DNA of 64,000 bases from Clostridiaceae bacterium (lineage in GTDB: Bacteria; Bacillota; Clostridia; DSM-8532). Below are positions 63,219-64,000 of the stretch, in pieces. How positions within the stretch are numbered: the first letter of the stretch is position 1; the number at the start of each line of letters is the position of its first letter. The stretch is taken from the NCBI GenBank assembly GCA_012840245.1, contig DULR01000055.1, positions 32,877-96,876 on the forward strand, written 5' to 3'. The translations under genes and the position numbers were made by a program. Below the pieces are notes generated by a model that saw only the letters and a program-made list of their open reading frames with translations, made no database searches and was not told the origin of the DNA.

Positions 63219-63504
63219 TTATTTCACTCCTTTTATCGCAAAATCCTAAAGGAGTACACTACAAGAATTTAAGACTGTTTTCTGCTATAAAATTAGATGT
63301 TTCAAACTAATCTCTCCATGATAAAAGAGATATGTTCGGATTAAACATACGACTAAAAAACATTTTAATCATTTCCCTGTATGTGGAAATACTATCATTC
63401 TTAATATAATCATACTATTAAGTATATTTCAATAAAATAAAAAACCGATGTCTAAAATAAGTGTAGAGATCCTGAATACAATACCCACATCTCCTCGGAT
63501 TATG

Positions 63505-63662
63505 TTTTGATCTATTCTCTCCGTTAGGAGAGAGACCCGGCACCCAGGTGCTATTGTCAGAACCACATGATTTTCAATCCACTCTCTCCGTGAGGAGAGA
63601 GACGTTTCTGAGTCTTCATCCTGTCGAACACCGTTGATATTTCAATCCACTCTCTCCGTGAG
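63505..63662 (-). CRISPR. trailer end of a type I-C-like CRISPR array (3 repeats, 2 spacers), last repeat truncated
   Basis: Repeats at 63505-63536 (5 mismatches), 63572-63603 and 63640-63662 (truncated); minus-strand form GTCTCTCTCCTCACGGAGAGAGTGGATTGAAA; spacers 35 and 36 nt. Confidence 0.85.
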
Positions 63663-64000
63663 TGTTATTCACTTGTGATAATGTCACCTTAAGATTCACT
63701 TGAGAAAATGTCACTTTGTATTAAACTAAAAAACATGAAAGAAGGATTAATAACATTGACTCAAAAACAATTGAAAACCTTTAAGGTTATCAACAGTTTC
63801 ATTGACAAGTCTATCACAAGGCAACAAGCCGCAGAGCTATTAGGTCTTTCTACCCGCCAGATCACACGTTTAAAGAAAGACTAACTATTAAAAGTCAAGC
63901 CCTAAAATGAATTATTTTGAATGGACTGCAGAAGTGTATTTCAGAAAAAATTGAACCTTGATAATTGCATGATAAATAGAGCACCCCAAGGAGCTGCTCA
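63663..64000 (+). mobile_element. IS-like element (ISNCY/rve-type transposase N-terminus), truncated by window edge and decayed
   Basis: Begins exactly where CRISPR repeat 3 is interrupted; tandem ATTCACTTGtGAtAATGTCAC / ATTCACTTGaGAaAATGTCAC; ORF MKEGLITLTQKQLKTFKVIN...QQAAELLGLSTRQITRLKKD*. Confidence 0.7.
63735..63884 (+). pseudogene. transposase N-terminal HTH fragment
   Basis: 49-aa ORF ending right after the HTH (RQITRLKKD*), no catalytic domain downstream in any obvious frame. Confidence 0.6.

Follow-up and report, generated by a model that had tools for sequence, protein, structure and literature searches.

Trailer-end remnant of a type I-C CRISPR array, probably orphaned, next to nested insertion elements in a Clostridiaceae genome

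Repeats and insertion elements at the locus

The right-hand end of the window (the whole 64-kb stretch of DNA analyzed) carries a short series of palindromic repeats read on the minus strand. The series stops at the tip of an ISNCY-family element, in the transposase gene of which the end of an IS110-family element is nested. The features are as follows:

63300..63331, minus strand: degenerate I-C repeat, extra copy, 24/32
63363..63394, minus strand: possible, heavily decayed repeat (tentative), 18/32, 63 nt from the copy at 63300
63505..63536, minus strand: degenerate I-C repeat, 27/32 in comparison with the intact copy
63537..63571, minus strand: 35-nt spacer without a convincing protospacer
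63572..63603, minus strand: intact I-C repeat GTCTCTCTCCTCACGGAGAGAGTGGATTGAAA, taken as the reference (32/32), with an 8-bp stem and a 4-nt loop
63604..63639, minus strand: 36-nt spacer without a convincing protospacer
63640..63662, minus strand: cut repeat, the 3' 23 nt exact and the 5' 9 nt gone at the insertion, with unrelated sequence beyond
63663..63875, plus strand: one end of an ISNCY-family element, with the tip at 63663 and subterminal repeats at 63667-63690 and 63694-63717
63708..63884, plus strand: N-terminus of the ISNCY transposase, a broken gene with a 58-codon frame that stops within the IS110 junction
63875..64000, plus strand: end of an IS110-family element situated within the gene for the ISNCY transposase and running up to the end of the contig

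The intact repeat runs from 63603 down to 63572 on the minus strand, and its predicted fold has an energy of -13.3 kcal/mol. The clear copies are spaced 67-68 nt apart, and the whole series consists of one perfect, one cut, two degenerate, and one possible repeat. The initial annotation had reported three repeats with 35- and 36-nt spacers (63505-63536, 63572-63603, and 63640-63662), which are present as described, and had regarded the degeneration of the leftmost one (27/32) as typical of a trailer end, a view which is supported. The left limit which it gave to the array was set too far to the right, however, in view of the further copy at 63300-63331 (24/32) and possibly of that at 63363. 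A score of 24/32 was reached by none of 5000 sequences generated at random with a Markov-1 model of the 286-nt intergenic stretch, their maximum being 20, and in the rest of the window no match on the same strand exceeded 19/32. The copy at 63363 is situated near the expected spacing, and the probability of at least 18/32 occurring by chance within a 13-position slot is about 0.002, for a site picked after the fact. Since 63300 and 63505 lie 205 nt apart, or roughly three times the 68 nt of one repeat-spacer unit, the array probably once continued further to the left, where it is now eroded.

The cutting of the third repeat by an insertion element, as initially proposed, was borne out by the identification of the ISNCY tip: related tips in three other genomes (G051, G053, and G086) share this starting base, and the sequence outside the tip differs in the copies read. 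The broken frame matches positions 1-32 of the 368 positions of NCBIfam NF033594 (E 8e-7, 28.5 bits, in comparison with a cut-off of 250), only the N-terminus being present, and its identity with annotated ISNCY transposases is about 50%. The insertion interrupts the repeat nine bases from the repeat's 5' end. The nine lost bases are too short for a search of their own, and the far ISNCY junction was not located. The flanking 245-aa gene has no orthologue in the relatives, hence no empty-site comparison could be made.

The contig, 96,876 nt in length, ends together with the window, 338 nt past the last repeat. From about position 63875, the sequence is common to two other contigs of the same genome, one of which (C50) has 127 identical nt, while the other (C67) is 98% identical. 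The contig under study and C50 both end at the identical 127-nt run, which looks like the assembler's k-mer overlap. In C67, the shared end comes after the C-terminus of an IS110 transposase, the identity of which with an annotated member of this family reaches 72%; the match with NF033542 (E 4e-6) is partial and below the cut-off because the C-terminus alone is present. Given this position of the shared end in C67, the sequence places the IS110 element within the gene for the ISNCY transposase, and it is at this multi-copy element that the draft contig ends. Both elements belong to known families (ISNCY, NF033594; IS110, NF033542), and each has one end within the contig: a single junction of each can be read, and neither element was read whole.

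Repeat type and orientation

The repeat is about 32 nt long and has the GTC start, the stem-loop, and the GTGGATTGAAA end found in arrays linked to cas8c, and the two spacers are unique, regularly spaced, and within the range of about 33-37 nt typical of I-C arrays. In a genome belonging to the same genus (G013, L031), cas3 (in two frames), cas5, cas8c, cas7, cas4, cas1, and cas2 are followed by an array containing at least 34 copies of GTCTCTCCCTATGTAGGGAGAGTGGATTGAAAT. This repeat shares the GTCTCTC start and the GAGAGTGGATTGAAA end with that in the window, whereas the bases of the stem and loop differ, and G013 has the full operon. When the loop bases were left unspecified, a search for the repeat yielded 14 copies in Lachnospiraceae bacterium AC2031, as well as 4 in a MAG of the Oscillospiraceae. 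In AC2031 (JIAB01000001.1, L043), the array is located about 190 nt past genes assigned by Pfam to Cas3, Cas5, Csd1 (Cas8c), Cas7, and Cas4; its repeat has the same 8-bp stem GTCTCTCTCC-loop-GGAGAGAGTGGATTGAAA, the same tail, and a similar spacing, but a different loop (TCAC in the window). Unlike the AC2031 array, which lies downstream of cas3-cas5-cas8c-cas7-cas4, that in the window has two or three legible repeats and no leader, is cut by an insertion element, and belongs to a genome in which the cas genes were not found. The same kind of stem and tail thus occurs directly downstream of cas3-cas5-cas8c-cas7 operons in G013 and AC2031, and the repeat can be assigned by comparison to type I-C. 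Since in both of these genomes the repeat is oriented with its GTC side toward the cas genes and the leader, the leader side in the window would be to the right. Type and orientation are both those proposed in the initial annotation.

The whole repeat had no match with up to 3 mismatches in 98 related genomes, and its last 30 nt had no exact match in the GTDB collection. Nor was any family matching the repeat, or anything else of relevance, found in Rfam, which would suit a small palindromic repeat family unrelated to CRISPR, the 67-68 nt spacing having arisen by chance; the fact that only three copies are clear, two of which are incomplete or degenerate, points the same way. The sequence, stem-loop, and spacing agree, however, with those of the I-C arrays adjacent to cas genes in the relatives, and the spacers, which are unique, have the length usual in I-C arrays, so that this explanation is extremely improbable.

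In G013, cas3 is split into two frames encoding 418 and 271 aa (L031, 5811-8029): the I-C system of this strain may be devoid of a working Cas3, or there may be a sequencing error at this point. In AC2031, a short Cas4 frame (139 aa; L043, 5847-6266) matches a portion of the profile and is directly followed by the array, without any cas1 or cas2 in between.

cas genes and the fate of the array

The genome is a 2.9-Mb draft consisting of 108 contigs and scored as 99.99% complete. Cas1 (PF01867), Cas7 (PF05107), and Cas8c (PF09709) were not found in this assembly, whereas the same profiles were positive in 4 of the 9 congeners searched in the case of Cas7 and 5 of 13 in that of Cas8c, which was absent in the other 8. 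Neither the effector genes of a functional I-C system (cas3-cas5c-cas8c-cas7, with cas8c as the signature), sought via Cas8c and Cas7, nor the adaptation genes (cas1-cas2(-cas4)), sought via Cas1, were therefore detected in the assembly. The leader would be expected to adjoin the first repeat on its GTC side; the ISNCY tip lies inside the repeat at 63663, and the sequence past the elements is unassembled. Further repeats were sought throughout the genome with three queries, namely the full repeat and its 3' 19 nt, each allowing up to 3 mismatches, and the 5' 14 nt, allowing one mismatch at most; none were found apart from two chance-like matches. One of these, in C57 (GTCTCGCTCCTCAC, one mismatch), was rejected as due to chance, with no insertion-element end adjoining; the other, in C47, showed 3 mismatches to the 19-mer and was also taken to be due to chance, as the reversed control likewise yielded one match.

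The leader and cas genes which the initial annotation had expected to the right are thus not present in the assembly, the contig ending 338 nt past the last repeat. It had also pictured a living array cut in two, and had specified that a lack of further repeats or cas genes would mean an old remnant, which is the outcome at the mismatch levels tested. If a living I-C system had been split in this way, the leader, the newer spacers, and the cas operon would lie beyond the elements and be missing from the draft, and two spacers would have been stranded. The end of the contig at a multi-copy IS110 end, with a terminal run identical to that of another contig, is typical of an assembly break, and several congeners carry I-C operons. 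In a genome with this level of completeness, however, a cas operon of about 7 kb together with its array should form a contig of its own, yet none of the three Cas proteins nor any further repeats were found, and the lack of Cas8c in most of the congeners searched shows that its absence is common in the genus. A split living system is therefore rather unlikely. Since the genome is nearly complete and three separate Cas families are absent, we favor the idea that the cas genes and the leader have been lost from the cell, and not merely from the assembly.

When an I-C system is functional, transcription of the array starts from the leader on the 5' (GTC) side, and Cas5c (Cas5d) cuts the repeat hairpins to give the crRNAs used by the Cas5-Cas8c-Cas7 Cascade and Cas3. 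The present locus is very likely what remains of the trailer end of a type I-C array, now dead, orphaned, and cut by a transposon. The ISNCY-family element has split a repeat at a point nine bases from the 5' end, and the IS110-family element has later landed in the ISNCY transposase gene. The two readable spacers would no longer be transcribed from a leader or processed, no new spacers could be gained, the older repeats would drift, and the locus would be inert. The elements may be what separated the array from its leader, and the cas genes may have been lost either before or after the insertions. Against the idea of a relic, the 108-contig draft breaks exactly here, and an unassembled or unbinned contig could carry the leader, more of the array, and the cas genes. 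A further point against it is the existence of one perfect repeat and of a cut repeat which is exact over its remaining 23 nt, which would suggest a loss of no great age.

The hairpin kept in the perfect repeat might also mean that an array devoid of cas genes has been maintained for use in trans by a mobile I-C system or one shared by the host. No leader adjoins the array, however, its repeats are eroding, no I-C effector was found in the genome, and the search for a matching repeat with up to 3 mismatches in the 98 related genomes was negative, all of which makes such a use highly improbable. It is hardly to be expected either that the spacers are processed by a Cas5 from elsewhere after being transcribed from a promoter in the insertion-element end.

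The search for the two spacers in phage and plasmid collections suggested in the initial annotation gave no match covering at least 80% of either of them, no exact 19-20-mer match was present in IMG/VR, and neither spacer occurs elsewhere in its own genome or in the related genomes. Sub-length matches with E values of 0.4 or worse, in unrelated hosts, were treated as chance. The lack of protospacers is uninformative as to the state of the array.

The orphaned I-C array tail is a known kind of structure and an ordinary relic. The term "orphan" array is in use in the literature (for example in PMC6452270 and PMC8616872), and our literature search yielded only general papers on such arrays. Like other arrays without cas genes, this is an array remnant in a genome where no cas genes were found, and no difference of principle separates it from them; what is particular to the present case is the detail of the nested ISNCY/IS110 cut. 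The species under study has likely lost a type I-C system that some other members of its genus retain; the array tail would be the fossil of this system, can serve as a marker of past CRISPR immunity in the lineage, and has little meaning beyond annotation. The two nested insertion elements at the junction illustrate one plausible route of decay.

Related insertion-element ends

In a congener (G006, L051, 1466-1565), an ISNCY-like end consists of overlapping subterminal repeats between two genes, with no transposase frame nearby, and may be either a solo end or a non-autonomous element of small size. The motif GAAAGAC occurs at the junction before the element end in all three IS110 insertions of the genome under study (63873-63884 in the window; L008, 4657-4670; L009, 347-335 on the minus strand): it could be either part of the element or a common target, and is useful for delimiting the IS110 core and the target of its guide RNA. 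"Plasmid 10" of Monoglobus pectinilyticus (NZ_OY725734.1, L070, 1-1563) is circular, 1563 bp in length, and carries as its sole gene an IS110 transposase, the C-terminus of which is 72% identical to that of the present IS110 element; instead of being a true plasmid, this molecule may represent an IS110 intermediate in circular form that was deposited under that name.
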